Source: Rhodopirellula islandica (GTDB taxonomy: Bacteria; Planctomycetota; Planctomycetia; Pirellulales; Pirellulaceae). Taken from it: 64,000 nt of DNA. Position 1 is the stretch's first letter. Every line of letters starts with the position of its first letter. Below, piece after piece: positions 3,144-26,505 of this stretch. The stretch is taken from positions 415,537 to 479,536 of the forward strand of contig NZ_LECT01000017.1 of assembly GCF_001027925.1 (NCBI RefSeq), in the 5' to 3' direction. The position numbers were made by a program, and so were the translations under genes. The notes under the pieces were generated by a model. It had not been told where the DNA came from. It worked only from the letters and a program-made list of their open reading frames with translations, and did no database searches.

Positions 3144-3506
3144 CTTCTCAATTCCCCTTCGCGGCTTTCTTCGAAACCGGCATAATGGATCCTAGTCCCG
3201 CGACCAGGGCTTCTCGTGACCTAAAAATGATACGATGGAGTCCGCCTGCGAGACACGGGGTTCAAAATCGCGTCTGGATTCAAAATGGCATCTGGGTTCC
3301 AGATCAATTGGGTACCGGATCAGCGAATGGAAACAGTGATCCTTTCCTGAACCCGCGTGCCTTGCGATGCGAACAGATTTGCAAGCCGAACAGCCCCAGC
3401 AAGTCCGGTTCCGAAGACGGACCCTGACCCCACCCTTCCAATTTGACCCTTTCCCCTTCGACGAGACTTCTGGATGAATCATCGACGCAGCGGCCAGCGT
3501 TCACTC
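3144..3506. other. Intergenic region between divergent genes
   Basis: No gene is supported here. The region separates the minus-strand dehydrogenase from the plus-strand TPR gene and should hold both promoters; no clear -35/-10 pair stands out. Two imperfect 18-bp tandem units (3261-3278 and 3279-3296, both beginning TTCAAAAT) are the only visible structure. Confidence 0.5.
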
Positions 3507-8956: not shown

Positions 8957-9401
8957 CCGAGCTCGGCGGCTCGGTTGCCCAACATCACTCTCCACTTAGC
9001 TCCATTCTGGTGACTGTTGGACGTCTGCACTGGATGCTGCACCAGGTGACGATCAAGTGAATCGTTCCGTTCAACGATTCAACAACGCGCCATGAATCGG
9101 TGTCAGTGTTCTGGGGCCGCGAGATCATTTCATTCGGGCAGACCGGCGTCGATCAGGTGGCAACCAAACTCTCCAGCGACGGAAATGGTTCCTGTGCCAT
9201 CTGAACCTCCCTCGCCTCCATGAATTGCTCCTTTGAAAACACTGGCTTTCAGGGGCAATCACGCTCGGCTGGTGGTCCCAAACGTCTTCCATGTGACCAC
9301 ACAGGGACTTGACACGGCATCCCAACGGCTCAGACTGCACCCCCCGCACATTTTACGGCCGCGATATCCCTGTTGCGGAGTTTGCTTCTGCGTCGAATTC
9401 T
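8957..9401. other. Intergenic region before the ECF sigma gene
   Basis: Roughly 445 bp with no convincing coding sequence on either strand; short open frames here lack ribosome-binding sites and protein-like composition. It should contain the promoter of the sigma-factor gene at 9402. Confidence 0.45.
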
Positions 9402-10007
9402 ATGTCAACTCACGAAGACACTTCCCGCAGCTTGATCGTTCGACTTCGCAACCGCGAATCGGATGCTTGGTCTCGATTTTCGATGATCTATTGCCCTTTG
9501 GTTTACCGTTGGGCACGCCGATCGAAGTTGCAGCAAGTTGACGCCGACGACTTGGTTCAAGAAGTATTCCGTAGCGTCTCGACCAGCATTGATTCCTATC
9601 GTGAGAGCATCGAGACAGGGAGTTTTCGTCGCTGGTTGTGGGGAATCACCCACCACAAGTTGATGGATCACTTTCGTCGATTGACAGCCAATCCCCGAGC
9701 CGAGGGTGGATCGGGTGCCCACGAGAAAATGAAACAGGTTCTCGATTCTTGCTCCGATGAATCGAGCATTGATTCTTCGTTTGATGCGGACACCTGGATC
9801 ATTCACCGAGCCCTGGGCTTGATGAAGTCTGATTTTGAAGAGCGCACTTGGCAAGCTTTTTGGAGGATGACTGTCGACAACCGCTCAGCCCAGGAAGTTG
9901 CTGATGAGTTGGGGATGAACAAAAAGGCGGTTCGTCAGGCCAAGTATCGAGTGCTGAAACAACTCCGCACAGAGCTGCGTGACGAGTTCCCTCTCGAAAG
10001 CGGTTAA
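9402..10007 (+). CDS. ECF-subfamily RNA polymerase sigma factor
   Basis: About 201 residues with the two ECF domains: sigma-70 region 2 (LIVRLRNRESDAWSRFSMIY, QQVDADDLVQEVFRSVSTSI, FRRWLWGITHHKLMDHFRR) and region 4 (RSAQEVADELGMNKKAVRQA). It redirects core RNA polymerase to a specific regulon. The ATG at 9402 places region 2 at the usual distance; an upstream in-frame start at 9309 would add 31 residues unlike the family. The zinc-finger/kinase gene starts 112 bases downstream on the same strand. This ECF plus kinase pairing is known from planctomycetes, so the kinase protein is the likely regulator. Confidence 0.93.
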   Translation: MSTHEDTSRSLIVRLRNRESDAWSRFSMIYCPLVYRWARRSKLQQVDADDLVQEVFRSVSTSIDSYRESIETGSFRRWLWGITHHKLMDHFRRLTANPRAEGGSGAHEKMKQVLDSCSDESSIDSSFDADTWIIHRALGLMKSDFEERTWQAFWRMTVDNRSAQEVADELGMNKKAVRQAKYRVLKQLRTELRDEFPLESG

Positions 10008-10119
10008 CCTTCCATTTCTGTGTGGCGCCCTCACGAATGTTTAGCAGAGACATCTTGGTCGTCGGAAATCAATGTCATCGATGTATCAAGTATTCAGTGC
10101 AGCCCCTTGAGGTGAAGTG

Positions 10120-13100
10120 ATGGCCTCCGATGATTGTCCACCCGCAGAAAAACTGAGCGACTACGCGAGTGGGACACTCAGCGAAGACTTGTCGCTCGAC
10201 ATCTCCAACCACGTCGAGGCCTGCCCCGAGTGTGAAGACACACTCATCAGTTTGGAATCGAATGCGGACACACTGATCGGCAAAATTCGGCTCCCGCAAC
10301 CCGAGGATTCGTACGCCAAGGAAGCCGGGCATGAACGAGCGATCGAACTCGTTCAAGCGATTCGTTTGGAGAGCCCCAGCGACGAAGACGCCACTTTCCC
10401 GCCTGACACCGCGACGGTGCAGTCAGAGCCCAATGCGGAGATCCCTGCCCAAATGACGGGGCGATTGGCACAATATGTTTTGCTGGAGAAATTGGGTCAG
10501 GGCGGCATGGGAGCTGTCTATCGAGCGAAGCACACGCGGCTACGGAGAATGGTGGCTCTGAAAGTTTTGCCGCCGAATTTGCTCAAGAATGCATCGGCGG
10601 TTGCACGCTTCGATCGAGAGATGCACGCCGTGGGGCAACTGGATCACCCCAACATTGTCCGCGCCAGCGACGCGGGTGAATTCGAGGGCATCCACTACCT
10701 CGTCATGGAATTGGTCGACGGCGATGACGTCGCCGTGATTGCAAGTCGCCATGGCCCGCTCCCAACGGCCGACGCTTGTGAAATCATTCGGCAAGCAGCG
10801 GTGGGGCTGTCCCATGCCAACGACAATGGATTGGTTCATCGAGATATCAAGCCATCCAATCTGATGCTGACCCAATCAGGGCAAGTCAAACTCCTGGACA
10901 TGGGACTCGCTCTTCTGGAGACACCACTGGATGCTGACGACGGCCTGACTTCGGCGGGGCAAGTCATGGGGACGCTCGACTACATTGCTCCCGAGCAAGT
11001 CACCAACAGTCACGCCGTGGATATTCGAGCGGATATCTATTCGCTGGGATGCACGCTGTATCGGTTGCTCTGCGGTCATGCCCCATTTCAAGATGCCAAG
11101 TACCAAAATGCAATCTACAAGGCGATGGCACATGTGGATACCACGCCGCCCCCGCTTGCAAAGCAACGCGCGGGCTTGCCCGCCGGCCTGATTGCGATCG
11201 TCGACAAGATGCTGGCCAAAAGTCCCGACGACCGTTTCCAAACCCCCGACGAATTGGCTGCGGCATTGGCACCGCTGACCGCAGGCCATGACTTGCAAAG
11301 CCTATTGGTCGATCCATCTGCGGATGCTGCGTCACCGAGTTTCTTCGCAGGCGCAGCCGATGCAGAAACTGCGACGACGAGTTTCGTATCGTTGGCGGGG
11401 CAACCGAATACCAACGAACCGAGCGCCAGCAAGACTGTCGCGAAGCCAGTCTTGCAAACCGGTTCATCCATGAGCGGTGGCCGCCGTGTCTGGCCGCTGG
11501 TCGCTGGACTCGGCGGTGCCGCAATGATGCTGTTTGCCGCCGGCGTTTTTTTCCTCCTGACGCCCCAGGGAATGTTGCGAGTTGAAATCAACGATCCCGA
11601 CATCGAGGTCCGCGTCAAAGGTGATCGCATTGTCTTGCACAGGGATGACAAAGATCCGATTTCCATGGCAGCGGGTGAGCACACACTCACGGTCACCCAG
11701 GGAGATCTCAGCTTTGACACGAAGCAATTCACGTTGAAAAGAGGTGAGACGACGACCGTCAAAGTCGAGCTGATGGACGGCGTGCTGCAAGCCACAACGT
11801 CAGATGGATCGATGCTTGGTCAAAAACAAACTCGTGTTCCTACGCCAGCTCGCAAGCCACTGCCGAAGTCAACATCGCCAGCGTTAGCGAGCGGCACTGA
11901 ACAGCCCACCACCTCCCCCCTCAATGAAGACATTCGATGGGCGCATGAAGAGTTGAGAGCAGTCATCACGTTACGTAGTGAGACAGGCCATGATTCAACG
12001 ATCGGTCCCGGTCAGCCGCTTCCGGAACCTCCAGGAAAGCTGATCGGGCTCACTTTGACGAAACAGAGACCAGCAACCGATTTGGATATGCGACGAGTGG
12101 GCTCCCTCACCGATCTGGAGTCATTCCATTTTGGCAGCACGACGAAATCTTCCCCGACGTTCATTGGGACCGCTCAGGGGATGCTTGAACTGGGGCGACT
12201 TTCGAAGTTGCGGTCTCTCGATCTGGGGGTTTTGCGGGAGGGAGCGGGCGGTGAGAAGGTGCTTGCAAATTTGGCCCTTGAGTATCTGCATCTTCCTTAC
12301 GCCGGCGTCAATGAATGGGCAGCAGCGGCCGCGGGACACCCGACCATCACCCGCTTAAGCTGTTACCGTGCGCACATCTCCGACGCGGCATTGAAGGGGC
12401 TGGAACAGGGCCAGAGGTTGAAGATGCTCGATCTTGGAGACTCCCCAGTCGCAAGCCCTGCAGCGATTGAGCACTTCACCGCTGCCGTGCCGGGATGCAG
12501 CATCCGACTACCAAATTTTGAGGTCATTGACCCTCGCGGAAATCAGTTTGGCAGCGTGCGGCGAAATGTGTCATGGAAACAAGCGATCGGTGGAGAACCG
12601 CGGATGAGTCCTCCATTGCCAACCGCAGTCACAGACAGCGGCAAAAGCCCAACCCCCGAGGAAGACATTCGCTGGGCTCATGAAGTCTTGAAAGCAGGCA
12701 TCACCCTCCGCAGTGATACAGGAAAGGAGTCCACAGTCACCCCGGAGCAGCCGCTGCCAGAAAATCCAGGGACACTGGTAGGCATCACCTTGGCGGGACA
12801 AAAATCAGCAACCGATTTGGATCTGCAACGCGTGGCAGGCTTCGCCGATTTGGAAACACTTGTTTTTGCCCATTCGCCTAATTCCAGCCCCAACTTTGTA
12901 GGCAGCCATCAAGGAATCCTTGAGCTAGCGAGGCTTCCCAAGTTGCGGTCGCTTTCCGTCCACTATCTGCCGGGAGTAGGTGGAGAAGAAGTACTCAAGG
13001 ACCTGCGTCTTGATTCTTTAAGCCTGCCTTGGGCCGACGTCAACGAGTGGGCGGCCGCAGCGGCAGGGCATCCAACACTTACCACGATCAGCGCCTACGG

Positions 13101-14742
13101 GACACAACTTTCCGATGCGGCACTGAAGGGTCTGGATGAGAATAAAGGACTGAAGTTGCTCGATCTCTCTGGAGCTGGAAGTCTAAGCCCCGAAGCGATT
13201 CAACATTTCGCGGACTCCGTCCCCGGATGCCGCATCAGATTGTCGAAATCGGAATTCATCGAACCGCGTGAAAAAGAGTCAGGTGCCGTGAATCGCAACG
13301 TGTCGTCGACTGAAACGATCGGTGGAGAACCGCGGATGAGTCCTGCATTGCCAACCGCAGTCAAAGACAGCGGCAAAAGCCCAACCCCCGAGGAAGACAT
13401 TCGTTGGGCTCATGACGTTTTAAAAGCAATCATTACCCTGCGTCGTGATACCGGTAGCATGTCCACCATCACTGCGGATGAACCGCTCCCTGAGGATCCC
13501 GGGACACTGGTTGGTATCAAACTAACACCACTTCGCACAGCGACCGATTCCGACCTGCAACGGATCGGATCATTCACCGATCTGGAGTCCTTTTCAACCG
13601 GTAAAGCGCTGACGGGAGCTCCCACGATTCAGGGGACCGCTCAAGGGATCCTCGAACTGGGACGCCTTCCAAATTTGCGAACGCTTGACCTACATTCCTG
13701 GACTGGACTGGGTGGCAAGGAGCTTCTGGAGAATTTGCAAATCAGCAGTTTGCGTCTCCCTTCCGATCGCGTCAATGAATGGGCGGCTGCGGCAGTGGGA
13801 CATCCCACGATTACCAGTCTCAGCGCCTTCGTGACGCATCTCACGGACACGTCGCTCATGAACTTAGAACAGAACTCGGCGTTGAAGCATATCGATCTCC
13901 GATACAATCCAAAACTGACTCGCGCTGCGGTCAACCATTTTGCTGCTGCCTTACCGGGATGCCAGATTCAGTTGCCGGACTATGACTCTCTGGAAGCTCG
14001 CGAACGAATGTGGGCCGGTCTCGCGCCCCGAGAGGGTTCGACAGATGGAGCGACGCCAGTTCAAAACGATGAAGGTGAAACGGGCGGCTTCAGCCCAACC
14101 CCTGGCGAGGACATTCATTGGGCAATCCATGAACTCAAGGCGGTGGTTACCCTGCGTTCTGAGATCGGCACAATCGCCACCGTCATCCTCGGTCAACCAC
14201 TCCCAAAACTTCCCAGCATGGTGGTCGCGATCGAATTTTCAGAACGGACGGTCGCAACGGATAACGATCTTCGCCGCGTGGCAAGCTTCAGCCACTTAGA
14301 ATCTCTCTCCTTTGGTTATCGGGATAGTGAGGGAGCGAAGTACATAGGAAGCGACCGGGGTATCCTTGAGCTGGCAAGGCTACAACACCTGCAGGTGCTG
14401 AACGTTCACGCTGTGCCGGAGGTGGGCGGTCAAGAGATTCTCCGAAAACTACACCTGGAGCATTTGTATCTCCCCCACGAAGGCACGGATGCGTGGGCAA
14501 CAGCGGTTGCAGGGCATCCCACATTCACCAGCCTCAACGCCTTCCGAACCGGCCTTTCAGATGAGGCTCTGAAAGGATTGGAACAGAACAAGGGTTTGAA
14601 GGTGCTCAATGTTTCAGGAGCCGCAAACCTAAGCCCTGAAGCCATTCAACATTTTGCGGAAGCTGTTCCGGCGTGTCGAATCAAGCTGGATCACCTCCAG
14701 TTCATCGAACCTCGCCATACGGAACCGACGCTCCAGGAGTGA
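10120..14742 (+). CDS. Zinc-finger/Ser-Thr protein kinase, transmembrane, with four C-terminal LRR-like repeats
   Basis: About 1,540 residues. The N-terminus has a zf-HC2-like anti-sigma motif (H31, C35, C38 in HVEACPEC). A Hanks-type kinase follows at about 119-395: glycine loop LGQGGMGAVY, VHRDIKPSN, and LLDMGLAL where DMG replaces canonical DFG, then APEQ. One membrane span lies near 457-480 (VAGLGGAAMMLFAAGVFFLL), followed by a PEGA-like segment. From about 603 to 1532 come four tandem units of roughly 240 residues, each opening with EDIxWAxxxL and ending in LRR-like helices. ATG 10120 is preferred over the adjacent GTG at 10117. It probably senses an extracytoplasmic signal and controls the upstream ECF factor by sequestration and/or phosphorylation (inference). 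Confidence 0.93.
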   Translation: MASDDCPPAEKLSDYASGTLSEDLSLDISNHVEACPECEDTLISLESNADTLIGKIRLPQPEDSYAKEAGHERAIELVQAIRLESPSDEDATFPPDTATVQSEPNAEIPAQMTGRLAQYVLLEKLGQGGMGAVYRAKHTRLRRMVALKVLPPNLLKNASAVARFDREMHAVGQLDHPNIVRASDAGEFEGIHYLVMELVDGDDVAVIASRHGPLPTADACEIIRQAAVGLSHANDNGLVHRDIKPSNLMLTQSGQVKLLDMGLALLETPLDADDGLTSAGQVMGTLDYIAPEQVTNSHAVDIRADIYSLGCTLYRLLCGHAPFQDAKYQNAIYKAMAHVDTTPPPLAKQRAGLPAGLIAIVDKMLAKSPDDRFQTPDELAAALAPLTAGHDLQSLLVDPSADAASPSFFAGAADAETATTSFVSLAGQPNTNEPSASKTVAKPVLQTGSSMSGGRRVWPLVAGLGGAAMMLFAAGVFFLLTPQGMLRVEINDPDIEVRVKGDRIVLHRDDKDPISMAAGEHTLTVTQGDLSFDTKQFTLKRGETTTVKVELMDGVLQATTSDGSMLGQKQTRVPTPARKPLPKSTSPALASGTEQPTTSPLNEDIRWAHEELRAVITLRSETGHDSTIGPGQPLPEPPGKLIGLTLTKQRPATDLDMRRVGSLTDLESFHFGSTTKSSPTFIGTAQGMLELGRLSKLRSLDLGVLREGAGGEKVLANLALEYLHLPYAGVNEWAAAAAGHPTITRLSCYRAHISDAALKGLEQGQRLKMLDLGDSPVASPAAIEHFTAAVPGCSIRLPNFEVIDPRGNQFGSVRRNVSWKQAIGGEPRMSPPLPTAVTDSGKSPTPEEDIRWAHEVLKAGITLRSDTGKESTVTPEQPLPENPGTLVGITLAGQKSATDLDLQRVAGFADLETLVFAHSPNSSPNFVGSHQGILELARLPKLRSLSVHYLPGVGGEEVLKDLRLDSLSLPWADVNEWAAAAAGHPTLTTISAYGTQLSDAALKGLDENKGLKLLDLSGAGSLSPEAIQHFADSVPGCRIRLSKSEFIEPREKESGAVNRNVSSTETIGGEPRMSPALPTAVKDSGKSPTPEEDIRWAHDVLKAIITLRRDTGSMSTITADEPLPEDPGTLVGIKLTPLRTATDSDLQRIGSFTDLESFSTGKALTGAPTIQGTAQGILELGRLPNLRTLDLHSWTGLGGKELLENLQISSLRLPSDRVNEWAAAAVGHPTITSLSAFVTHLTDTSLMNLEQNSALKHIDLRYNPKLTRAAVNHFAAALPGCQIQLPDYDSLEARERMWAGLAPREGSTDGATPVQNDEGETGGFSPTPGEDIHWAIHELKAVVTLRSEIGTIATVILGQPLPKLPSMVVAIEFSERTVATDNDLRRVASFSHLESLSFGYRDSEGAKYIGSDRGILELARLQHLQVLNVHAVPEVGGQEILRKLHLEHLYLPHEGTDAWATAVAGHPTFTSLNAFRTGLSDEALKGLEQNKGLKVLNVSGAANLSPEAIQHFAEAVPACRIKLDHLQFIEPRHTEPTLQE
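11926..14715 (+). repeat. Four tandem coding repeats in the kinase gene
   Basis: Copies start near 11926, 12658, 13390 and 14101, period about 730 bp. Each encodes EDIxWAxxxLKAxxTLR, an ATDxDLxRV segment and a C-terminal LSPEAIQHFAxxVPxCRI-type helix. The DNA linking copies 1/2 (12584-12682) and copies 2/3 (13316-13414) is almost identical (three differences in about 98 bp), while the repeat bodies have diverged. Confidence 0.85.
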
Positions 14743-14901
14743 ACTTGCGTTCCCTCCAGCGAAGTCGGTTCGCAAATTTTCTTGTGGCGCCTTTTCGAAA
14801 GACTTTTCAGACGGGGAGTGATCGATGCTTCAAAACATCGTTTTCGAAATCTGAGACGGCAGAAACAGTCGCAATACCAAGGGAACGAGGCGAACCACAC
14901 C

Positions 14902-17900
14902 ATGTCCACACGGACCTTCCGCGACCGATTTCTGCGCCGCAAACCAGCCCGCCCCAACCCAGGCAGGCGCCGCTCGTTTCGGCTGGAACAACTCGAAAAA
15001 CGCAACCTGCTCGCGACTTACATCGTCGACAGCCTCACTGACGATGGCTCGGGCGGTACGACGCTGCGTGAAGCAGTCGAAGCGGCGTCCTTCAATGAAG
15101 CCCGTCACGGTTTGCCAGCGGGTGAAAGCAGCGACGTCATCCGCTTTGCTGATTCCCTCTTCTTCGATGGGCCAGCGACACTGACGATGCGGCCCGAGTT
15201 GTATACGACGAAACCCTACCCACGAGCAAGCTACTTTGTGCCTGGTGCGATGCACGTATTCGCCGACACGGCAGCGGATACTCAGGCGGTTTTCCCCGCG
15301 TTCGTGGAAGGAACCATCACCATCATTGGGCCTGGTGCAGACCTGCTGTCGATCGACGCAAATGGTAGCCAAAGTATCTTCGTCATTGATGATCAGGTCA
15401 AACTGAGCGGGATGCAATTGACTGGAAGCTCCGGCAGAGCCATCACCAATGCAACTTACACCAACGCAGCTACCAGCGCTGTCGAGACCGCTACCATTGA
15501 TCTTGAAATCAATGACATGATCGTTCGTGGCAACCCCGGCGGGGCCGCTGCGTTGTCAAGAGGCGTGATCACGATTCGAAATAGCGTGATTGAGAACAAT
15601 GGCTTCGCGGACGAGATGACCAGGGTCGAAAGTGGTGGTGCCCTGTTCGTGACCTCCTTGGGATACCAAGAGGTTTCGTCGCTCATCGTGGAAGATTCTG
15701 TGATCCGAGGGAACCAGGCTCTCAATGGTGGTGGCATTGGCGTTGACGAAGGGAGCGTGGTTGTCTCTCGAAGCACCATTGAGATGAACTCCGCTATCGG
15801 CAATTCCGACCAGCAATCCAGTGGCGGAGGGATCTACCTTGATCCCGTCAGCAAGCAAGCCGATGTCTCAATCTACGAGTCGGAAATTCGTTCCAACACC
15901 GCGTCGCAGGGCGGAGGAATCTACTTGAGCGACGGAAGTACGCGGGGTAGTTCCAAAGAGTCTGTCGTCCGTGTTCGCGACAGCAACATCATCGGCAATC
16001 AGGCAACCGTATCAGGCGGAGGTGTTTCGGTGTTCGCTGGAAGCAACGCTAGCGAGTCTCCCAAATTGGTGCTTAGCAACAGCTCTGTCACTCTGAATTC
16101 GGCTCCGATCGGTGGCGGAGTTGACAACGTCGGTGGCGTACTTGAAATCACTGGCAGCAGTTTCACCGACAATGAAGCCTCCGAGAACGGAGGCGCGATT
16201 GCTTCACGGCAATCCGACACTCCACTCGCGTCCGATCATCCCACAGCGACTATCAGTAATTCAACGATCTCCGGGAACCGATCCTCGGGCGTTGGCGGCG
16301 GAATCTTTTACGACCCCCGACCCGAATCTGCGGACGATGCAAAACTCACTTTGATCAACACGACGATCACGCTGAACCAGGCGGGAACGGGTGGCGGTCT
16401 CGCGATCAACGAAGCCGATGGGCTTCCGACCTCCAAGCTGGTCAATACGATCGTCGCTGGAAACACGCTGGCTGGAGATTCCACTGCGAGCGATATCCAT
16501 CTGGTGTCGTCAGCACCCATTTTAGTGGCCCAGAGTCGGTTCAATCTGATTGGTGATCCCGCCACGGCGGGCGGTCTTGTCGATGATCGCAATGAAGCAA
16601 CGGGAAACGGAAACATCGTTGGCGATCTGCTTGGACAACCTCTGAATCTCGACGCGATTCTGTTTCGAAACTTAGCCGACAATCTGGGCGGACCAGCGTT
16701 GCCGCCGCTATTTGGAACCGGAAGACAAATTCAACGTCCGGCGATGCACTCGCTGAAACTGGATAGCCCGGCCATGGATGCAGGGACTCCTTTCCTGCCG
16801 TCGGCTGTGGACGGGATTCGCTTTGACGACAATGGCGATCCAATCGTCCCGGTCGACGCTCCCTATTCCGATGCCTTGCACGCCGATGGGCGTGGCTATC
16901 CGTTCTTGCGCCGAGACAGTTTTCTAGGCGGTGGTGGAATCGTCGCCGGGGCCGTGGATATCGGAGCCTACGAAAATCAAATCAGACCGATCTTCACGGG
17001 TAGCGAACTGGTCGTCTCGACATTGGATGACGAAAATGATGGCGACTATTCATATGGTGAGCTCTCGCTTCGCGAAGCGGTTGCAATTGCAAATCTTTCT
17101 CCGGATGACAACGGAATCCGATTCGCTCCCTCGCTGATCGAAACCGACGCAGGCGAGATTTCGACGATCTATCTGACCAGTCCGATTGAAATTCTGTTCA
17201 ACGTGACGGTTTCAGGACCGGGCAGCGATCTCTTGCAGATCAGCGGCGGTCATGGAACACGAATGCTTGAAATCGGACCACTCGCTACAACATCGATTTC
17301 TGGATTGGCGTTTGTCGATGGTCTCGGCGAAAGCCCCCGCTTTGATCAAACTCAATTTGACGGGGCGTCCATCACAGCACAGGGTGGCGCGATCTTCAAC
17401 GCCGGAAAAACGACGATCGAGGATGCACTGTTTGCGAGAAACACGAGCCTGGCAACAGAAAAAGTTGGATTCGAGGCGGCAGCCGCCGATGGCGGCGGCG
17501 CGATCTCCAACGCGGGTGTCATGACGATCAAAGACACGGTCTTTCGTGACAATTCCTCCGAGTCCAACGGGGGCGCAATTACCAATCACGCACTACCTTT
17601 CGGGGCGTTTGACCTTCAAATTGGGTTGACGAACAGCCCCACACTTGCAATTGGCCCCAATGTTCAATTTGAGAACAATCATGCCGACACCGATGGCGGT
17701 GCGATTCAGACATGGCAACCCATTTCCATTGTCGATTCGACATTCACCGGTAACTCGGCAGGTCGCGATGGTGGTGCCATCGCTTTTGGCATCGAGTACC
17801 GAGGGGTGGGTCTTTACGTGTACGACTCGCCGGGGCAAGACCTGGTTCAACGATCCGAATTCCGCAACAACCAGGCAGCCAATTACGGCGGAGCAATCAC

Positions 17901-20900
17901 AGTCAATGACAAAGCATCCGTTCGAGTCGTCGACTCAATCGTTGATCAAAACAACTCATCATACGGTGGGGGAATCGAAGCAGTCGGATACCTCGAACTA
18001 GAACGCACCACCGTTTCGCGAAATGTTGCAACGGTGAGTGGGGGTGGACTCGCGTTTTTTGGCCAGGGGATCTTCACGATCAACAGCAGTACGATTTCAG
18101 GAAATCGTGTTCAAGGAGTTGTCCCCGGTTACGGCGGTGGCATTTCCATTCAGAAGAACGCCAGAGAAAGCGCAACCATTTATCAACCGACGTCACAGTC
18201 TCAACAGATCAATGACAGCACCATTTCCGGGAACCAAGTCATTTCCGCCTTGGGACTCAATGCATTGGGTTCTGGACTTTGGACGAACGATCAAATCACA
18301 CTCACCAACAGCATCGTCAGTGGCAACTTCCAAGACAATGGTATCGGCCCTCAAGTCTTTATCAGAGAGACTGGTAGCATCCATGCACCACTTCCAAATA
18401 TCATTCCCAACTACAACTCGACAATCTCTGGCGTCAACGATCTAAGTAGATTTTCAGGCGCAACAACGATCACCGTCGACCCGAACTTGCAGTCGCTCGC
18501 CGACAACGGCGGTCGAGCGGAAACGAACGCGATTGGACCGACCAGCGTCGCAATCGACAATGGACAACGCCAAGGACTGCTCGATCAACGCGGATACCCG
18601 GTCACCGATCAATTGGATCCGTTCTTTGATTTACGGGATGATGATGGTGAAGTTGGTGACATCGGCGCCTATGAATCGAGCCAAGTTCATATCGTCGACT
18701 TCACATCCGAAACACGCAACGCAAGTCAATATGGAACCGCTGAGGCCGTCAGTTTTGGACTGGGAATTGACGACGGGAAACCGAACAGCACCATCCCGAA
18801 GGATCCTGGTTTCCTGGGGATCGAATTCAACAAGACTTTCAATGTTGGCCCCGGCATCTACGAGGATCCGCTCTTCGGTTCCGAGTGGGGTGCCAATGCC
18901 AACGCCAATGTCCAAGGCAAGTTGGGATTGGAATACGGTTATTTTATCAACTCAGGCAGCGTCGATACGTTTTACGATGGTCAATTCGCTTACCGAGTGG
19001 ACCAACTGCCCAACACGGATGACTTCGTCATCAACACCAGTTCGACGCTGACCGATGGCAAGCTGTTCACGACGTCACCACGGGTCAGCGCGTACGCGGA
19101 CTTGGTGCTTCAGTTCAACGCCTCCATTGCGGGTACCGCATGTGTGATTTCATGCGTGAGCGGATCGGTTCCGATCGGTATTGACACCAAGGTGCCGCTG
19201 TTTTCCATCAACCGTCAAGAGGAAGACGACAACGGCAACAAACTCTTTCTCGGCGCGAACGGTCTCACGACCGATAGCGCTGGTGGCACGAACCCGCCTG
19301 CCTTTGATGGTGACATTGTGGTCGCCGGTTTGGATTTGCAATCGGCGCTGGACATCGACTTGTCCGATGGGGATGACAGCCAAACCGACAAACTGGGGAG
19401 CATCCGAACGGAGCGACGCCAAGCAGAGATTGACAAGGCTGCCGGCAAACCAGGCGACCATGACGCCATCATTCGCAACGCGGTTGCCGCCGAAAAAAGT
19501 GCGACGCAGAAAAAGAAGGGGAGTGTGGAGGTTTCTAGCCCCGCCTTCACTTTGTCGTTCGGGCAAGCGGAGGACTTGCTTGGTGTCGAAGTTGGTTTGA
19601 GTGTGGGTGCCAGTGCCAAAGCGGGGCCAGTGAGTGCAGAGATAACGAAGAACCTTGGGAAAATTGCCTTGACGGTTCCCGAAATTGATCTTTCGGACAC
19701 CACCTTCGACACCCCGCAGGGCAAGCTATCCGCGACAACCGACGATTTTGCGATCGGATCCAATGTGGATGCCAAACGACAAATCGCTGCACTATCGGTC
19801 GACGTCGGTGCCTTGGGGCCGTTCGGTGTCTACAACCTTTCGGCGGGGCCGATTGATATTGAAGCCACCACCGTCTCCTACGTGATCTCGCCGCGACTGG
19901 CAATCTCTCAAGATGTTTCCGTCGAACCGTTTTTTGATGAGTCACATCAAGCCGGTTTTGATTTTGTTTTTACTGGTGGTGGCACGATCAACGTTTCCAT
20001 TGGGGACGCTTCGCCTGTCGCACTTTCTTCCGGTGGCAGCATCAGCTTCATGCCGGGCAGTGAAGTTCGCATCGATGCAAATGGTAACAGCGACATTCAG
20101 GTCAATCCGTCCATCACGGTTGGCAATCGATTCTCCAATGACATCGGATTGGAGTTTGATGTTCTCGGCGTGCTGGAAGTCTTGAGGCTGAAACTGAACG
20201 CGTTTGGAGAGCAGCTGTTTGACATTGGGCCGCTGTATGAAACCTCGCATTCGCTGCTCGATGCGATCGGCGTCGATGCGCTCGATTTTGGCTCGATCTT
20301 TGCTTCCACGTTCAACTTGCCCGCATCCACAACGCAAATCGAATCCTTCTCGCTCAACTCGGCGGAAGAGGGCGCCGCTCGTGATGGGAAAAGTCCCGGC
20401 GCCGCATTCCTGTTGCAATCCGGTGTGCCGACTCAAATCGATCCGGTCAATGGACAGACCACCTACTTATCAGTGCCGTTGTTGGGACCTGACAATGTGC
20501 TGCACAACGACGTGCTGTTTGAAACCCAAAGCCAAGACACGGTGCTGATTCGGCCGCCGTATGGCGGCTTGACGCTGGAATTGCTCGATAGTTCCGGTCA
20601 AGTTCGAAGTAGTTTTGAACTGGACGTGAAAGGAACAACGTTCACCAGCGGCAACGGTCCCGAGACCTGGCGTTTAAAGGGTTTTGAGAACCTGCTCGGC
20701 AGCCAAGCTTTGTTCGGCGTCCAGTTCAGTGGCGATGCGACTCGCGAGGTCACCGTCACGGTCGAGGGTGGATCTGCTCTGTCGCTGCCCGGTGTCCATA
20801 CCGATCGATTGTTAACGGCGGAGAAGCAGGAAGCACTCAACCGGGCATCGACCCTATTCGTGCGCAACTCGGATCTTGCGCTGGACATCGATGGTGATGG

Positions 20901-23900
20901 TCGCCTGTCCCCCACCACCGACGGGACGTTGATTGCCCGCTTCATGGATGGGCAGCGTGGGGCAACCTTGATTGCCGGAATCACATCGGACGACGTTGTT
21001 TCTGATGCAGCAACCCGAACGGATGCTGCGGAGATCGAAATGGTTTTGCAAAACCTGTTGATGCAAGGTCGTTTGGATGTGGACGACAATGACACGGTGG
21101 ATCCGAAGATCGATGGCGTGCTGATCCTACGGTACATGTCGGCCATCGGTGGCTCATCGACGACTCAGCAGGCCTTGACCGATGGTTTGGATTTGAATGC
21201 CCTGGGTGGACGGCGAACACTGCCCGCGGACATTCGAGCGTTCATGGAGGGAGGGGAAAGCCCTCCGCTAAATCAAACCTTTGCCGACGATGTGCTGTCG
21301 CTGTCAGACCGATCCGGTATTCCTCGGTTTCGTGTTTCCAGCAGCGCCGTAACGGGTTCGTCGCCTTTTGCCCCCGTCCTAACACCGTTTGTTAGCGGCA
21401 CAGGCATTTTCACACTTGACACGTTGGGCAGCACCGTGACGTTTGACGAGACCTACTTGGTCGATGCAAATGATCCGAGTACCCGCACACTCGTACGCAG
21501 CCGCGCCGAGGGCACTCCAGCTCGCACGATCGATCTTCCCGAAGAGTTTCAAAAGTACCTCGGCGATCCGCTGTCACCTGAGATCGATACTTTGCTCGGC
21601 CGGTTTGAAACACCGACCCCGGCTCGAACACAGATACTGGGTCTCGAGGAACCGATCTTTGTGCGGGTCCCGGATGCATCGGGATACGAATTCACTTTGC
21701 CAGCGGGCCTGACCGCGAAGGAAATTCATTTTGATCCGAATGTTGGTGGGAACCTGTTCTTGCAACACACCGAAGCAAATTCGGGAACAAACATTGACTT
21801 TGACCTGTTCATTGCGTCGACCGGGGAGTGGCGAGAAGTGTCAATGAGCACCCCGTTTACTTTGCCGGCGGGAGTTTCCACTTTCGAACTCTATCCGAGA
21901 CCGATCGTGACTTCGCGACTGCTAGACCCGAACGATGATGGCGACGTGAACTTGGATTTGACGGTAGGTTTGGTTCTTGAGGGGAATCAAACGTCCTCAC
22001 CCGCACTGACGGTCAACGTGCTCGCTGATCGACAAGAGCTCATCAACCTGTATGAAATCCAAGTTGGAGTCGGATCGGATTCAGCCGCTTTCGAAACCCG
22101 GATCGCGCGTGACGGTGCCTACGTGGCAATTAGCACGAATGAGGTTCAGTCGAGCCTGTCGAGCCAACGCATTGATCTTGATGTCGATGTTTCCAATGAC
22201 TACCCAAGAATGTTGGTGAAGTTTAGCAGAGGTACGCTCGAAGACTTGCCGTCAGGCCTCTATCGCGTTTGGGCGAATTGGGCAGCCGACCCCAATGTGG
22301 GGACCTATTTTGGAGGGATTGAATACACCGCTTCCACGAGTGAGGATGGGCTATCCACTGTCAAGAAATTCGAAGTGGATCCACGGCGGTTTCCAAACCA
22401 AGATTTGGTTGTCAACGGACTCGTCTATCAGGAATTGTTTGATATTCGTGTGGGTGGAAACGCACTCAGCATCGGTGCTATCGATTTGAACCGAATCAGG
22501 CGAGACATCTATGTCCAACGCATTGATGATACCGTAAACGTTGATGTGACTCAGAATCCCTCCAGCGGCATTCCCCTTGCTCTCGCTCCATCGTACGCAC
22601 AGGAGTTTCCTGGCCGCTCAGCGGTCTCGGTCACGGCGACCGCTGCAGGTTTCAAGCCGATGACGGATACCTACAGCGTGACACTGACGGATCAACCGTT
22701 TGGTTCGGTTCCCACTCACGGCATCGCCGATCAGATTGTGCCACTGGGAACGACTCAACACATGATCGATCTTTCTAGTGTCTTTGATGCGCCGGATCTG
22801 ATTCTTTCGGTTGAGTCAAACAACTCGTTGGTGACCGTGGCGATCGACGGCGACAACTTAAGCATTGGGTTCACTGAAAACGCATCCGCAAAGGTCTTCC
22901 TGACAGCCCAAAATGCTTCCGGCATGTTGATGGGGACCGACACATTCGTGATTTCAACCGGAGATTCAAGTGTCCGTCGGACGACCGTTCTGGATCCTAT
23001 TTCAGACAAAATTGTTCCGGTGACGCTGCCCGCCGTTTATCGATATCGGTTTAACGACGAGTCGCTCAATGAAGATTCAGGCGGCCCTTCACTCGTGGCG
23101 GTGGGGGGGGCGTTCAGCGATTTCGGATACAGGTTTGGTGAAAACGAAGGCCTCAATCTTTCATCGGTGCTCTCCGACCCAGGTGAATACAGAATCGAGT
23201 TCGACTTTGCATTTGATGAGTATTTTGGATTCCAAAAGATCATCGACTTCAAGGGCCTCACCAGTGACAACGGACTCTACACCAATGGGCATCAACTCGC
23301 GTTCTATCCGATCGCCGATTCAACGTTCAACCTCCCGTACGGTCTCACCACGGGAGGACGGTATCGCCTTCAAATCACACGCGATGCTGAAACTTCCCAA
23401 GTCACCGTCTCAATAGCAAACGAAGAAGTAATCAAGTTCATCGATGATTCAGGAATCGCTATTTTCAGCGGCCCAAACAATACGATTCGTCTGTTTCAAG
23501 ATGACCAGTCAACAGGTTCATGGGAGGCCGGAAGCGGATGGGTGGACAACCTTCAAGTCCGTGACGGGCTGATTGATCCGTTCAAGTTGGCGTCCGTGAC
23601 CGATTTCAGTACTCGGTATAGCGATCGCGAGTTCGTCACCTATTCCTCGCTCGATGCAGGGAACTCTGGGCCGCTACCCGACCAATTGGGGCCCGATCGA
23701 GCTGTGGTGGTGACGGGCAAGCCAGACGCGGAAGACACTCTGATCTTGGATGCGCGGACCGGGCCACTCTATCAGCCATTCCGGTTTCACGCAGAGCCAG
23801 GTGAAGTTGCGCCCGCCACCGGCTGGACGGACGAGATCGTCATTCAAGGCGAGGGCGTTCAGATTGACCTTCGTGAATCAGAAATCCAAGGCATCGGCCG

Positions 23901-26505
23901 CATCGATCTTCGTGGATCAGGGCCAAACACGTTGATCGTGACCGCCGATGCATTGTTCAACAATGATCCCGGATTGCATCCGTTGATTGTGATTGCGGAG
24001 GCCGACGATACCGTGATCCGCGCGGGCGACACCGCTTGGATAAAACTTCCTGCTCGTCAACTCGATCCCACTTCGGGTTTGAACTTCGATGTTTACCAAA
24101 GTGGGGCGGCGGTGCTTTGGGTGTCTGCCCCGTCAGCGACCCTGCCTCCCACGGCTCCGGCCGAAGGCCCCGATTTCGATTTCCCTCAGTCGACACTTTC
24201 AGCCGAGTTGACCAACGAATTGGAAGTCCCTGGGCAGATCGTCTTGGTTCCTCCCTCCGATGCAAACTTGATGGCGGGCGAGAGGTTCACGATTGACGTG
24301 CTGTACAACATTGATGATGCAAGCGGATTGATCCCGCCAGCGATCTTGGTGGAAGTTCACTATGATTCGACAAAAATTGCGTTTTCAGACCTGCCTTTCC
24401 TGCTTGCCAACGGCTTGGTCAATGACATCGATTCGGAAAGCCCCGAATTCGAAACTGTCGACGACGGCAATGTGCGAACGAATCGAACGCTGATCTTTTC
24501 GTTCACCGATTTCCTGGGTGCTTGGCCAGCGGAAGCAACCCAATCCACCAAGCTTGCCACAATTGAGTTTCAAGGCGGAGACGCGACCGGAATCACGGAC
24601 ATCCGGCTGACCGGACTGTCCTCCAATGGGTTCATCTTTGATGCCGAGGATTTCGCGTTGTTATCTGTCGATACCAACACACCGACGATCACATTGACCA
24701 CTGACACTGTCACACTTGCTGCTGGCCAAACACTCAGTGACGCCTTGGCGATTATCAATCCGCAAGCCACCGACTTGGTCGACGAGCTTCCTACCATCAC
24801 CAACGACGCACCATCGGTGCTGCCCACCGGGATGACGACCATCCTGTTCTCGGCAACGGACAAAGCGGGCAACACCAGCACTGCCTCCGCAACAGTCAAC
24901 GTGCTCGGCCGTTCAATGGATTTCGGTGATGCTCCTTCGCTAACGCAGTCTGGATTTGCGTCGGACTACCCGGTCACCAAAGCTCAGGATGGAGCGAGCC
25001 ATTCCGTGGGCAGCCTGTTCTTGGGGACATCCGTCGATGTTGAAACTGATGGCGTCCCAAGTCCGAATGCGGAAGGCGACACGGACGACGATGGCGTCGA
25101 TTTCTTGGTCGATCCCGTCGCAACGATGGACAGGCTAAGCGTTTCCAGTGTTCGCGTGCATAGCTCGGGGGGGGGGATCGTGGATGCCTGGTTGGATTTC
25201 AATCGCGACGGTGACTGGAATGATCCTGGCGAGAGAATCATCAGTGGTGCTGCCGTTGATTCGGGTGACACGCTGCTCAGCTATCAGGTTCCAGCCGGAG
25301 CTTCATCGGGGACTTCCTATGCTCGGTTCCGCCTCTCGTCCCTCGGCAGTGAACTGCCCACCGGTGCCGCCGCGGATGGGGAAGTCGAAGACTATTCCGT
25401 CGAGTTGATCAGCGGTGCGACCTCTCCGACAGTCGTGGTGCAACCCGGTGCGTCAGACACTTCGCTGTTCCTGGATCCGGATCTTGTCAGATTGGTTTCC
25501 GGAGCACTGACCGTGTTCGAGGCTCCAAGCGACCAAGTGGGGACGATCGACTACCGCCCACTCGTGACGCCCGAAGCAATCAATTTGATGTTGGCAGCGG
25601 AACATACAGTGGCTGCCAATCAGATTCAGTTTGGCGTCTTCGCGGATGGTTCCAGTGTGAACGTCAGCGGTATTGGTGGATCGATCGACCTGACCAACGT
25701 GGCCACGCAGGCCGCCCAGGGCCGCGTGACGCTGGACCTGACCCACGGCGACCCCAGTTCCGCGACCATTGATGCGATCTTGGCACGAAAGTGGTCCATG
25801 GACTCATTGCCAATGCAAGTCATGATTGGCGTGGAGGATCGAGTGCTGTTCGCCGACGCGGATGAGTGGCGGATGACCGATCCAGTCATGACGAGTGGCG
25901 TCTTCCAACTGACAGCAGCAAACCAGAGTGGAAACGCATCCATCGTTGTCAGTTCGGCGCGGCCTTGGCAGAATTTCATTCGCCTCAACGACGTGACAAA
26001 CGACGGAGTCGTGCGTGCGTCCGACGCATTGCGAATCATCAACGAGTTGAACTCACAGGACTTCTCCAGTTCCGACGGACGATTGATTGATCCGGCTTCC
26101 TTGTCAGAAAGCATGGTCTCTTACTATGACACCAGCGGCGATGGCGTTGTATCCGCACTCGATGCTCTGCGAGTCATCAACGAACTCAACGCGGTCTCAG
26201 CCGGTGGAGAGCCCCTTGAGAATGCCAGCCAGGGATCTCAACTCGCAGTCCCGATGGGACCTGCCGAACAACTTCCCCTCGCTTCCATTCCTCCAGAGGA
26301 GCCGATGCTCGCGTTCGACGCATGGAAACAGAAGCCGCGATTTGCTGCCGCCGACCTGCTGAGCACGGATCTTGTCATTCGCCAACGACTCTCGACAACA
26401 ACTCCATCCGATTCTTCGGTCGAAGAATCGGTCTCCGACGAAAACTGGCGAGCGGTCGACGAACTGTTTTCGCAGAGCAATCCGCTGGAACAAAATATCT
26501 TGTGA
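14902..26505 (+). CDS. Giant secreted surface protein (LEPR-xLLA-type motif, beta-helix, cohesin-like and dockerin-like modules)
   Basis: About 3,867 residues. The basic N-terminus leads into RLEQLEKRNLLA (about 28-38), a variant of the planctomycete LEPR-xLLA export motif. Two right-handed beta-helix regions follow (about 39-690 and 697-1266), each opening with a CSLREA-like phrase (TTLREAVEAASF, LSLREAVAIANL) and rich in GGAI/GGGI turns. Later modules: a dockerin-like EF-hand pair (about 1993-2086; DIDGDGRLSPTTDGTLIARF), a LamG-like sandwich (about 2712-2890), a cohesin-like domain (about 3110-3258), a GEVED-type domain (about 3339-3506; WLDFNRDGDWNDPGERI) and a C-terminal dockerin (about 3693-3766; DTSGDGVVSALDALRVINEL). 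ATG 14902 is preferred; an upstream start at 14782 would put 40 residues before the usual basic N-terminus. Probably adhesion or glycan binding. Confidence 0.9.
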   Translation: MSTRTFRDRFLRRKPARPNPGRRRSFRLEQLEKRNLLATYIVDSLTDDGSGGTTLREAVEAASFNEARHGLPAGESSDVIRFADSLFFDGPATLTMRPELYTTKPYPRASYFVPGAMHVFADTAADTQAVFPAFVEGTITIIGPGADLLSIDANGSQSIFVIDDQVKLSGMQLTGSSGRAITNATYTNAATSAVETATIDLEINDMIVRGNPGGAAALSRGVITIRNSVIENNGFADEMTRVESGGALFVTSLGYQEVSSLIVEDSVIRGNQALNGGGIGVDEGSVVVSRSTIEMNSAIGNSDQQSSGGGIYLDPVSKQADVSIYESEIRSNTASQGGGIYLSDGSTRGSSKESVVRVRDSNIIGNQATVSGGGVSVFAGSNASESPKLVLSNSSVTLNSAPIGGGVDNVGGVLEITGSSFTDNEASENGGAIASRQSDTPLASDHPTATISNSTISGNRSSGVGGGIFYDPRPESADDAKLTLINTTITLNQAGTGGGLAINEADGLPTSKLVNTIVAGNTLAGDSTASDIHLVSSAPILVAQSRFNLIGDPATAGGLVDDRNEATGNGNIVGDLLGQPLNLDAILFRNLADNLGGPALPPLFGTGRQIQRPAMHSLKLDSPAMDAGTPFLPSAVDGIRFDDNGDPIVPVDAPYSDALHADGRGYPFLRRDSFLGGGGIVAGAVDIGAYENQIRPIFTGSELVVSTLDDENDGDYSYGELSLREAVAIANLSPDDNGIRFAPSLIETDAGEISTIYLTSPIEILFNVTVSGPGSDLLQISGGHGTRMLEIGPLATTSISGLAFVDGLGESPRFDQTQFDGASITAQGGAIFNAGKTTIEDALFARNTSLATEKVGFEAAAADGGGAISNAGVMTIKDTVFRDNSSESNGGAITNHALPFGAFDLQIGLTNSPTLAIGPNVQFENNHADTDGGAIQTWQPISIVDSTFTGNSAGRDGGAIAFGIEYRGVGLYVYDSPGQDLVQRSEFRNNQAANYGGAITVNDKASVRVVDSIVDQNNSSYGGGIEAVGYLELERTTVSRNVATVSGGGLAFFGQGIFTINSSTISGNRVQGVVPGYGGGISIQKNARESATIYQPTSQSQQINDSTISGNQVISALGLNALGSGLWTNDQITLTNSIVSGNFQDNGIGPQVFIRETGSIHAPLPNIIPNYNSTISGVNDLSRFSGATTITVDPNLQSLADNGGRAETNAIGPTSVAIDNGQRQGLLDQRGYPVTDQLDPFFDLRDDDGEVGDIGAYESSQVHIVDFTSETRNASQYGTAEAVSFGLGIDDGKPNSTIPKDPGFLGIEFNKTFNVGPGIYEDPLFGSEWGANANANVQGKLGLEYGYFINSGSVDTFYDGQFAYRVDQLPNTDDFVINTSSTLTDGKLFTTSPRVSAYADLVLQFNASIAGTACVISCVSGSVPIGIDTKVPLFSINRQEEDDNGNKLFLGANGLTTDSAGGTNPPAFDGDIVVAGLDLQSALDIDLSDGDDSQTDKLGSIRTERRQAEIDKAAGKPGDHDAIIRNAVAAEKSATQKKKGSVEVSSPAFTLSFGQAEDLLGVEVGLSVGASAKAGPVSAEITKNLGKIALTVPEIDLSDTTFDTPQGKLSATTDDFAIGSNVDAKRQIAALSVDVGALGPFGVYNLSAGPIDIEATTVSYVISPRLAISQDVSVEPFFDESHQAGFDFVFTGGGTINVSIGDASPVALSSGGSISFMPGSEVRIDANGNSDIQVNPSITVGNRFSNDIGLEFDVLGVLEVLRLKLNAFGEQLFDIGPLYETSHSLLDAIGVDALDFGSIFASTFNLPASTTQIESFSLNSAEEGAARDGKSPGAAFLLQSGVPTQIDPVNGQTTYLSVPLLGPDNVLHNDVLFETQSQDTVLIRPPYGGLTLELLDSSGQVRSSFELDVKGTTFTSGNGPETWRLKGFENLLGSQALFGVQFSGDATREVTVTVEGGSALSLPGVHTDRLLTAEKQEALNRASTLFVRNSDLALDIDGDGRLSPTTDGTLIARFMDGQRGATLIAGITSDDVVSDAATRTDAAEIEMVLQNLLMQGRLDVDDNDTVDPKIDGVLILRYMSAIGGSSTTQQALTDGLDLNALGGRRTLPADIRAFMEGGESPPLNQTFADDVLSLSDRSGIPRFRVSSSAVTGSSPFAPVLTPFVSGTGIFTLDTLGSTVTFDETYLVDANDPSTRTLVRSRAEGTPARTIDLPEEFQKYLGDPLSPEIDTLLGRFETPTPARTQILGLEEPIFVRVPDASGYEFTLPAGLTAKEIHFDPNVGGNLFLQHTEANSGTNIDFDLFIASTGEWREVSMSTPFTLPAGVSTFELYPRPIVTSRLLDPNDDGDVNLDLTVGLVLEGNQTSSPALTVNVLADRQELINLYEIQVGVGSDSAAFETRIARDGAYVAISTNEVQSSLSSQRIDLDVDVSNDYPRMLVKFSRGTLEDLPSGLYRVWANWAADPNVGTYFGGIEYTASTSEDGLSTVKKFEVDPRRFPNQDLVVNGLVYQELFDIRVGGNALSIGAIDLNRIRRDIYVQRIDDTVNVDVTQNPSSGIPLALAPSYAQEFPGRSAVSVTATAAGFKPMTDTYSVTLTDQPFGSVPTHGIADQIVPLGTTQHMIDLSSVFDAPDLILSVESNNSLVTVAIDGDNLSIGFTENASAKVFLTAQNASGMLMGTDTFVISTGDSSVRRTTVLDPISDKIVPVTLPAVYRYRFNDESLNEDSGGPSLVAVGGAFSDFGYRFGENEGLNLSSVLSDPGEYRIEFDFAFDEYFGFQKIIDFKGLTSDNGLYTNGHQLAFYPIADSTFNLPYGLTTGGRYRLQITRDAETSQVTVSIANEEVIKFIDDSGIAIFSGPNNTIRLFQDDQSTGSWEAGSGWVDNLQVRDGLIDPFKLASVTDFSTRYSDREFVTYSSLDAGNSGPLPDQLGPDRAVVVTGKPDAEDTLILDARTGPLYQPFRFHAEPGEVAPATGWTDEIVIQGEGVQIDLRESEIQGIGRIDLRGSGPNTLIVTADALFNNDPGLHPLIVIAEADDTVIRAGDTAWIKLPARQLDPTSGLNFDVYQSGAAVLWVSAPSATLPPTAPAEGPDFDFPQSTLSAELTNELEVPGQIVLVPPSDANLMAGERFTIDVLYNIDDASGLIPPAILVEVHYDSTKIAFSDLPFLLANGLVNDIDSESPEFETVDDGNVRTNRTLIFSFTDFLGAWPAEATQSTKLATIEFQGGDATGITDIRLTGLSSNGFIFDAEDFALLSVDTNTPTITLTTDTVTLAAGQTLSDALAIINPQATDLVDELPTITNDAPSVLPTGMTTILFSATDKAGNTSTASATVNVLGRSMDFGDAPSLTQSGFASDYPVTKAQDGASHSVGSLFLGTSVDVETDGVPSPNAEGDTDDDGVDFLVDPVATMDRLSVSSVRVHSSGGGIVDAWLDFNRDGDWNDPGERIISGAAVDSGDTLLSYQVPAGASSGTSYARFRLSSLGSELPTGAAADGEVEDYSVELISGATSPTVVVQPGASDTSLFLDPDLVRLVSGALTVFEAPSDQVGTIDYRPLVTPEAINLMLAAEHTVAANQIQFGVFADGSSVNVSGIGGSIDLTNVATQAAQGRVTLDLTHGDPSSATIDAILARKWSMDSLPMQVMIGVEDRVLFADADEWRMTDPVMTSGVFQLTAANQSGNASIVVSSARPWQNFIRLNDVTNDGVVRASDALRIINELNSQDFSSSDGRLIDPASLSESMVSYYDTSGDGVVSALDALRVINELNAVSAGGEPLENASQGSQLAVPMGPAEQLPLASIPPEEPMLAFDAWKQKPRFAAADLLSTDLVIRQRLSTTTPSDSSVEESVSDENWRAVDELFSQSNPLEQNIL

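Follow-up and report, generated by a model that had tools for sequence, protein, structure and literature searches.

A candidate two-partner linker: a cohesin-like module and a dockerin in one giant planctomycete chain

A giant gene of Rhodopirellula islandica encodes a chain of 3867 residues that holds both a cohesin-like module and a type I dockerin. The dockerin, as plug, and the cohesin, as socket, are the parts that join proteins in cellulosomes. We give an even chance to the reading that the giant is a secreted, adaptor-scaffoldin-like surface protein and a candidate linker of two partners. It is described as being like an adaptor scaffoldin rather than as one of them because its cohesin-like module fails the Pfam Cohesin model. 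What appears to be new is a divergent cohesin-like family, an uncatalogued dockerin-like pair and a conserved unit of an ECF sigma factor, a kinase and the giant. No earlier description of the giant, the repeat pair or the tail motif was found in the titles and abstract openings searched, in which few subscription journals were covered.

Module layout of the giant protein

The gene lies in a window of 64,000 nucleotides, the whole stretch of DNA analyzed, from a genome of 7.43 Mb in 55 contigs. The features discussed below, with positions counted from the first letter of the window, are as follows.

9309..10007, + strand: ECF sigma factor gene, 232 aa, first of the unit (Pfam Sigma70_r2, E 6.5e-13)
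10117..14742, + strand: Ser/Thr protein kinase, 1541 aa (Pfam Pkinase, E 1.1e-48)
14774..14828, + strand: 55-bp block kept in both orthologous kinase-giant spacers (ungapped local alignment, score 40)
14902..26505, + strand: giant protein gene, 3867 aa (ATG at 14902, stop at 26505)
14965..15015, + strand: LEPR-XLL-like motif FRLEQLEKRNLLA at the giant N-terminus (Planc_extracel, 17.1 bits, below the Pfam cut-off of 25.5)
15022..18687, + strand: two PMP/choice-of-anchor-Q repeat regions, residues 41-1262 (Chlam_PMP, choice_anch_Q)
20863..21261, + strand: extended calcium-loop repeat pair, residues 1988-2120 (dockerin-like, uncatalogued)
24235..24666, + strand: cohesin-like module, residues 3112-3255 (6-row profile, AlphaFold2 model, Foldseek, VIA)
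24667..24903, + strand: HYR-like domain, residues 3256-3334 (Pfam HYR, 16.7 bits, below the cut-off of 21.7)
25180..25401, + strand: GEVED domain, residues 3427-3500 (Pfam, E 1.1e-15)
25987..26190, + strand: type I dockerin, residues 3696-3763 (Pfam Dockerin_1, E 9.3e-11)
26455..26469, + strand: VDELF motif in the C-terminal tail, residues 3852-3856 (kept in the orthologue)

The reading frame runs from ATG to stop on the strand and at the coordinates given in the original prediction, and an alternative TTG start 120 bp upstream of the ATG would extend the product to 3907 aa. Along the chain, the LEPR-like N-terminus is followed by the two PMP-type regions, the calcium-loop pair, the cohesin-like module, the HYR-like domain (72.2% identical to that of the orthologue), the GEVED domain, the dockerin and the tail. 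Residues 1-40 are 77.5% identical to the orthologue. An export-linked role of the LEPR-XLL-like motif is likely, and the giant is probably secreted, export being read from an N-terminus that scores below Pfam's cut-off. In the repeat regions, Pfam Chlam_PMP (E 8.7e-7) and NCBIfam choice_anch_Q (E 4.2e-12) match, POMP repeats also exceed their cut-off, and an NCBIfam CSLREA match at residues 704-731 stays below it. Parallel β-helices are the probable fold of these regions. A single-sequence search of the PDB with the whole giant gave one match, to a putative transmembrane protein, at residues 233-399.

Predicted fold and distribution of the cohesin-like module

The cohesin-like module is placed at residues 3112-3255 by a 6-row profile that includes the giant's own sequence, in agreement with the sandwich at about 3110-3258 proposed originally. 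It has no Pfam or NCBIfam cohesin match when the whole protein is scanned, and the segment scanned alone against Pfam likewise has no match over the PF00963 cut-off. The 6-row profile found no match in 25 other ORFs and none in 26 reversed sequences. It is narrow, since two of those 25 ORFs hold a Pfam cohesin and were not matched. An AlphaFold2 model built from 7 input sequences is all-β, with a pLDDT of 69.9 and a pTM of 0.65. In a Foldseek search with this model, each of the top 31 rows belongs to an entry of the cohesin, cohesin-dockerin or scaffoldin type (E from 2.2e-6 to 2.5e-4), with TM-scores by query length of 0.39-0.56 and large rmsd values. VIA-align gave 2vo8 as the best row (Z 14.4, 2.3 Å over 129 residues) and Z 11.8 for the best row outside cohesin entries; adhesin, pilin, integrin and macroglobulin domains also score Z 10-12. 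Because solved cohesins rank first in both comparisons, the module is predicted to have the cohesin β-sandwich fold. It did not model as another Ig-like fold, the outcome set beforehand as speaking against the assignment. A cohesin fold alone does not prove dockerin binding. When the PDB was searched with a profile of the cohesin-like family, a scaffoldin cohesin ranked first, but at E 0.021, and this match is therefore not taken as proof.

Relatives of the module place it at the margin of the catalogued family. A protein encoded at locus L022, on JAGFJK010000327.1 of a Pirellulaceae MAG, carries four cohesin-like modules and a dockerin. Scanned whole, it passes the Pfam Cohesin model with 50 bits (cut-off 24.1, E 4.4e-13), and the two single modules that were scored reach 23.9 and 16.2 bits. 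The module of a Rubripirellula fragment, L023, scores 13.6 bits against the same cut-off of 24.1, and the C-terminal order of this fragment is that of the giant, with cohesin-like module, GEVED, dockerin and tail. The modules of the orthologue and of two relatives from genome G412, L016 and L019, have no Pfam cohesin match.

The module looks rare among the planctomycete genomes sampled. Its own sequence, used as query, matches in 3 of 196 genomes of the order, and the 6-row profile in at least 4 of 392 genomes of the phylum, own genome included in both counts; the latter is a lower bound, as the survey scored about 10 candidates per genome. Within the class of G412, 2 of 150 genomes match the profile, and a single scan of genome contigs returned 3 loci only. 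No relative of the module or of the repeat pair was found in viral contigs by tblastn. The module is thus too rare to be the general receptor of the genome's dockerins.

The C-terminal dockerin and its counterparts in the genome

Two dockerin-type pairs had been proposed for the giant, at about residues 1993-2086 and 3693-3766. The C-terminal one stands: Pfam Dockerin_1 matches residues 3696-3763 with 42.2 bits (cut-off 22.9), and the same residues contain the duplicated calcium loop of a type I dockerin. Its halves, DVTNDGVVRASDALRIINELN and DTSGDGVVSALDALRVINELN, are near-symmetric, with D at positions 1, 5 and 12 and a helix-like stretch after the loop, and residues 3693-3766 are 70.3% identical to the orthologue. 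The more N-terminal one does not hold as a standard dockerin, as described in the next section.

Dockerin_1 gives 24 matches in 23 ORFs of the source genome, the largest of 9526 aa; two of these ORFs are cut off by the end of a contig. For 15 of them, the distance from the last dockerin loop found to the C-terminus is at most about 135 residues. A loop pattern that fixes positions 1, 3, 5, 12-14, 16-18, 20 and 21 and leaves the others free collected 31 loops from 18 of the 20 ORFs given (23 in all). Position 10 is A in 27 of these 31 loops and position 11 is L in 27 of 31; the giant's own first loop has A-S rather than A-L. In cellulosome dockerins, loop positions 10 and 11 decide the choice of cohesin. 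The near-uniform A/L at these positions suggests that the genome's dockerins may share one kind of receptor. A profile of ten dockerins of this type, searched against the PDB at E ≤0.01, returned nothing but two EF-hand proteins; cellulosomal dockerins were absent from the matches.

Only two Pfam cohesins of the source genome pass the cut-off, and they are neighbors on contig C54. The first is in a 424-aa protein (L055:14707-15981, E 1.2e-14). The second is in a chain of 1999 aa (L055:8343-14342) that also has 14 cadherin matches; its cohesin segment scanned alone gives E 5.2e-14, and with the chain scanned whole, cohesin is not among the matches listed. Two dockerin-like loops, seen by eye, lie just after this cohesin, in a chain with no Pfam Dockerin match. 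The idea that a cohesin and a dockerin in one chain are unique to the giant was rejected, as the 1999-aa chain joins a cohesin to dockerin-like loops and the L022 protein has four cohesin-like modules and a dockerin. The dockerins in the 22 ORFs besides the giant and the two C54 cohesins are the candidate partners. Many giant dockerin proteins are found in genomes of Pirellulaceae. Cohesins number 1, 1, 1 and 0 in four Stieleria genomes (Pirellulaceae) according to the CAZyme count in PMC9692418, and many dockerins are reported for kelp-associated Planctomycetes in PMC5264255.

The C-terminal tails of dockerin proteins repeatedly contain a VDxLF-like motif. The VDELF of the giant is kept in the orthologue though the tail is only 36.6% identical, and similar motifs are present in 11 of 15 tails of the source genome, the same 15 tails from which the motif was derived. 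In the same-genus genome G695 it is found in 5 of 9 tails, a count reached by 2 of 5000 shuffles, and in three genomes of other genera (G121, G078, G088) 6 of the 11 tails between 30 and 160 residues long have it; of the 30 loci, 8 were set aside because their flank contains no stop, and 2 tails because their length fell outside this range. An altered form, VDLLA or IDLLA, occurs in 6 of the 8 G412 tails examined.

The extended calcium-loop pair

The segment at residues 1988-2120 matches no Pfam family even at E 10, and the reading of the giant as holding two standard dockerins was rejected on this ground. Its two Asp-rich loops, DIDGDGRLSPTTD and DVDDNDTVDPKID, start at residues 1995 and 2059 and are both kept in the orthologue. 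They are one residue longer than a dockerin loop and lie about 50 residues apart. The pair is 35-40% identical to the repeat pairs of L022 and L016. A profile-profile comparison with dockerins by hhalign aligned both loops (P 89%, E 2.4e-6), and in a PDB profile search dockerins lead without significance (E 0.38 and 0.69). The AlphaFold2 model, built from 3 sequences only, is poor (pLDDT 64.7): the best Foldseek row has E 3.9, and none of 30 chains reaches Z ≥2 in VIA. This failed structure match is weak evidence either way.

A profile of the repeat pair matched at least 4 of the 392 phylum genomes, a lower bound from scoring about 10 candidates per genome. One of the matches, in G374, is spurious, with two stop codons inside and E 3.7e-4; credible pairs are found in G000, G032 and G412. 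G412 has 10 repeat pairs vs 1 standard dockerin match, and 8 of the 10 sit 70-121 residues before the stop; of the remaining two, one (L031) has no stop within the flank and the other (L038) was not resolved by the script. The 4 pairs of G032 lie 82-212 residues before the stop, vs 2 dockerin matches, and the source genome has 1 pair vs 24 dockerin matches. L022 has two cohesin-like modules with a repeat pair immediately behind them, and L016 has one. From positions and counts we infer that the pair may be a distant relative of the dockerin that stands in for it in some lineages.

The ECF-kinase-giant unit

The giant directly follows an ECF/kinase pair, as had been noted originally, and this order is kept in one same-genus genome, G699, where ECF, kinase and giant are arranged identically on one strand (locus L066). 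The ECF scores 71.1 bits with NCBIfam sigma70-ECF (cut-off 42.9) and is identical to that of the orthologous unit at 156 of 209 aligned residues. The kinase begins with a zinc-finger anti-sigma-like segment (zf-HC2, 20.3 bits, below the cut-off of 22.2) and ends with leucine-rich-like repeats (LRR_4, 26.7 bits, just under the cut-off of 27). This repeat region is matched in 2 of 60 relatives when the source genome is counted; 13 of the 60 belong to the same genus.

The L066 giant is a 4420-aa ORF, compared over 4391 aa from its ATG, and shares 57.7% identity with the source giant over 3318 aligned residues. Identity is 63.6% in the repeat pair, 57.6% in the cohesin-like module and 72.8% in the GEVED region. 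In every giant segment pN is below pS, by a wide margin except in the tail (0.42 vs 0.56), with pS near saturation in several segments. In the alignment, the orthologue carries an insertion of 660 columns behind the cohesin-like module and another of 232 behind the HYR-like domain, and it lacks giant residues 2423-2596 and 2608-2911. Its 660-column insertion contains, by eye, HELTHLFGF, which resembles a metallopeptidase site; the insertion has no Pfam peptidase match.

Kinase and giant are separated by 159 bp. The 55-bp block kept in this gap is a possible regulatory element, and no match to it scoring ≥30 was found in the other loci compared. In the stretch upstream of the ECF, the alignment of source and orthologue scores no higher than that of shuffled sequence. 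The kinase-giant gap has one terminator-like site on the + strand, and over the 601 bp scanned on both strands there are 2 such sites vs 0.9 expected. Beside five other ECF relatives of the source genome, no giant gene was seen in the stretches examined, the neighboring genes being named by eye; the relative on contig C46, examined to the contig end, is followed by a kinase and then a 234-aa ORF. The proposal that ECF units generally govern giants was rejected on this basis. For the unit described here, co-transcription and ECF control of the giant are plausible from the gene arrangement.

Possible roles of the giant and alternative explanations

If the giant acts as an adaptor-like linker, its N-terminus would send it out of the cell and calcium would fold its C-terminal dockerin. 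The folded dockerin would then plug into a cohesin that the remaining dockerin proteins of the genome also use, with the products of the C54 cohesin genes as candidate receptors. The giant's own cohesin-like module would be a socket for a dockerin-type partner, and with socket and plug together the chain would link two partners. The long repeat part would offer a surface for adhesion or substrate binding. Adjacency and its conservation suggest the ECF-kinase pair as the switch that would turn the unit on.

The main competitor, to which we give a smaller but substantial share of belief, is that the giant is an ordinary adhesin, with the cohesin-like module serving as a β-sandwich spacer that binds no dockerin and the dockerin merely anchoring the chain to a receptor, as in the other dockerin ORFs. 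The apparent rarity of the module, its lack of a Pfam cohesin match, the other sandwich-type modules that flank it, the VIA scores of adhesin and pilin domains, and the position of the dockerin near the C-terminus in most of the dockerin ORFs all agree with such a protein. The module's profile also matches none of the 22 other dockerin ORFs, and with only two Pfam cohesin places in the genome, a dockerin is normally found with no cohesin in the same chain. However, cohesin entries outrank all other folds in the model comparison, and a plain spacer would not be expected to have homologues placed immediately ahead of calcium-loop pairs, as seen in L022 and L016.

The same adjacency would be explained if the pair at 1988-2120 folded onto the cohesin-like module of its own chain as a clasp, stiffening it, the two being a cis pair inherited from proteins where they stand next to each other. 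All three genomes with credible pairs also hold the cohesin-like module, a co-occurrence biased by the fact that some seeds of the pair profile came from module neighbors. We consider such a clasp unlikely: in the giant about 1000 residues separate pair and module, and the spacing is not kept, the two stretches missing from the orthologue lying in between. Moreover, most G412 pairs are near the C-terminus, and just 1 of the 10 G412 pair ORFs also matches the cohesin-like profile. Still less credence is given to a self-polymer, one of the uses proposed originally, in which the dockerin would plug into the cohesin-like module of the next chain and build fibers. In its favor, the chain carries both halves, and the orthologue has preserved the two. 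However, the dockerin shares its recognition positions with most of the genome's dockerin loops examined and would hardly be reserved for such a rare module, and cellulosomal adaptor scaffoldins usually pair cohesins and dockerins of different specificity. Self-binding is one of several possible pairings. The other use proposed, docking of further planctomycete surface proteins, fits the numbers of potential parts, 23 dockerin ORFs vs two Pfam cohesins and the module.

A bolder extension of the adaptor-like reading, which we hold as doubtful, is that Planctomycetes have two calcium-plug systems: the standard dockerin, and the longer DGxLxxRYLxGF pair with the rare cohesin-like family as its socket. 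If true, the giant would hold the plugs of both systems together with the socket of the second, and would bridge two distinct coupling codes at the surface of a single cell. More generally, no description of the partners or purpose of the giant dockerin proteins of Pirellulaceae was found in the literature. If the parts pair, giant surface proteins would be components that assemble into a coat or a capture machine with a role other than cellulose breakdown. The candidate set is small, consisting of one divergent cohesin-like module, one dockerin, one plug-like pair and the two C54 cohesins, and the repeat pair and the tail motif would supply annotators with two new models.

Comparison with known systems

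ECFs controlled by kinases are a named class (PMC8103513), and the unit of the giant is like these regulatory pairs in that the ECF adjoins a Ser/Thr kinase. Unlike the phospho-switched ECFs outlined there, the ECF of the giant's unit has an intact acidic motif in sigma-2 (DADD, by eye). Since this motif is intact, sequestration of the ECF by the zinc-finger segment of the kinase is more likely than a phospho-switch. In Rhodopirellula baltica, a regulator adjoining a giant gene has been suggested to control it (PMC2754498).

The closest solved folds are cohesin-like modules of Clostridium perfringens (2vo8, 2w1n and 2jh2, Z 13.9-14.4), with only 9-12% sequence identity to the module of the giant. 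The C. perfringens modules sit on glycoside hydrolases, whereas that of the giant sits on a giant repeat protein. A 'planctosome' has been proposed for freshwater Planctomycetes (PMC6461901), in which a secreted adaptor chain holds a dockerin, an HYR domain and a cohesin. The giant, probably secreted too, likewise has a dockerin, an HYR-like domain and a cohesin-like module in one planctomycete chain; unlike it, the proposed adaptor serves peptidases and belongs to Nemodlikiaceae. Adaptor scaffoldins with cohesin and dockerin in one chain are established in cellulosomes, and those of Acetivibrio and Pseudobacteroides, as presented in PMC11557425, resemble the giant in this respect. The giant differs from them in its single divergent cohesin-like module with no Pfam match, its giant repeat part and its planctomycete host. 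Two-ended linkers are already known, and the candidate linker described here uses parts that domain libraries miss.

C-terminal tail motif

A short motif, [VIL]Dx[AVILF][FMLW], recurs in C-terminal tails downstream of dockerins, and one instance of it lies in the tail of the 3867-aa giant protein:

Window 26455-26469: VDELF, C-terminal tail of the giant

The motif is present in 11 of the 15 tails from the R. islandica genome, which are the same set from which it was derived, versus 28 of 827 body windows. For three other genera, the corresponding counts are 6/11 tails and 3/76 body windows. The tail counts were matched by none of 5000 shuffles for the R. islandica genome and by none of 5000 for the other genera. 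Outside this genome, the motif is carried by tails at the following loci:

L095, L102, L104, L105, L107, L109: tails with [VIL]Dx[AVILF][FMLW]

In the R. islandica genome, a cohesin protein encoded on contig C54 terminates in AAVDEVFASNLF. An altered pattern, VDLLA or IDLLA, was found in 6 of the 8 tails read from another planctomycete (G412). The tail motif is possibly a sorting or anchoring signal.

Conserved spacer block and other dockerin proteins

The spacer between the kinase gene and the giant gene has a block that is kept in the spacer of the orthologous unit (L066, same genus):

Window 14774-14828: 55-bp block, kinase-giant spacer

Upstream of the ECF gene, alignment of the two units is no better than that of shuffled sequence. 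It is noted that the L066 orthologue has an extra stretch after the cohesin-like module, bearing the zinc-site-like motif HELTHLFGF, which is absent from the window protein.

Other large dockerin proteins were found in the R. islandica genome and in a Pirellulaceae MAG:

G000:C16:31500-73800 (L076-L078), R. islandica: tandem giant dockerin ORFs, 6162 and 7524 aa
L022:1953-7997, MAG: dockerin protein, 2014 aa

The same-genus genome G695 has a comparable tandem, with ORFs of 6161 and 7568 aa. Besides a trypsin domain and a C-terminal dockerin, the MAG protein has four cohesin-like modules, among which two extended calcium-loop pairs are interspersed.

Candidate receptors

L055:8343-17047, R. islandica, contig C54: three-gene cluster, all products with LEPR-like N-termini

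The 1999-aa product, a cadherin-rich chain, carries a cohesin as well as dockerin-like loops, and the 424-aa product is a cohesin protein. The 225-aa product appears cohesin-like by eye, and a Pfam search with it returned no match. The cluster proteins are candidate receptors for the dockerins of their own genome.
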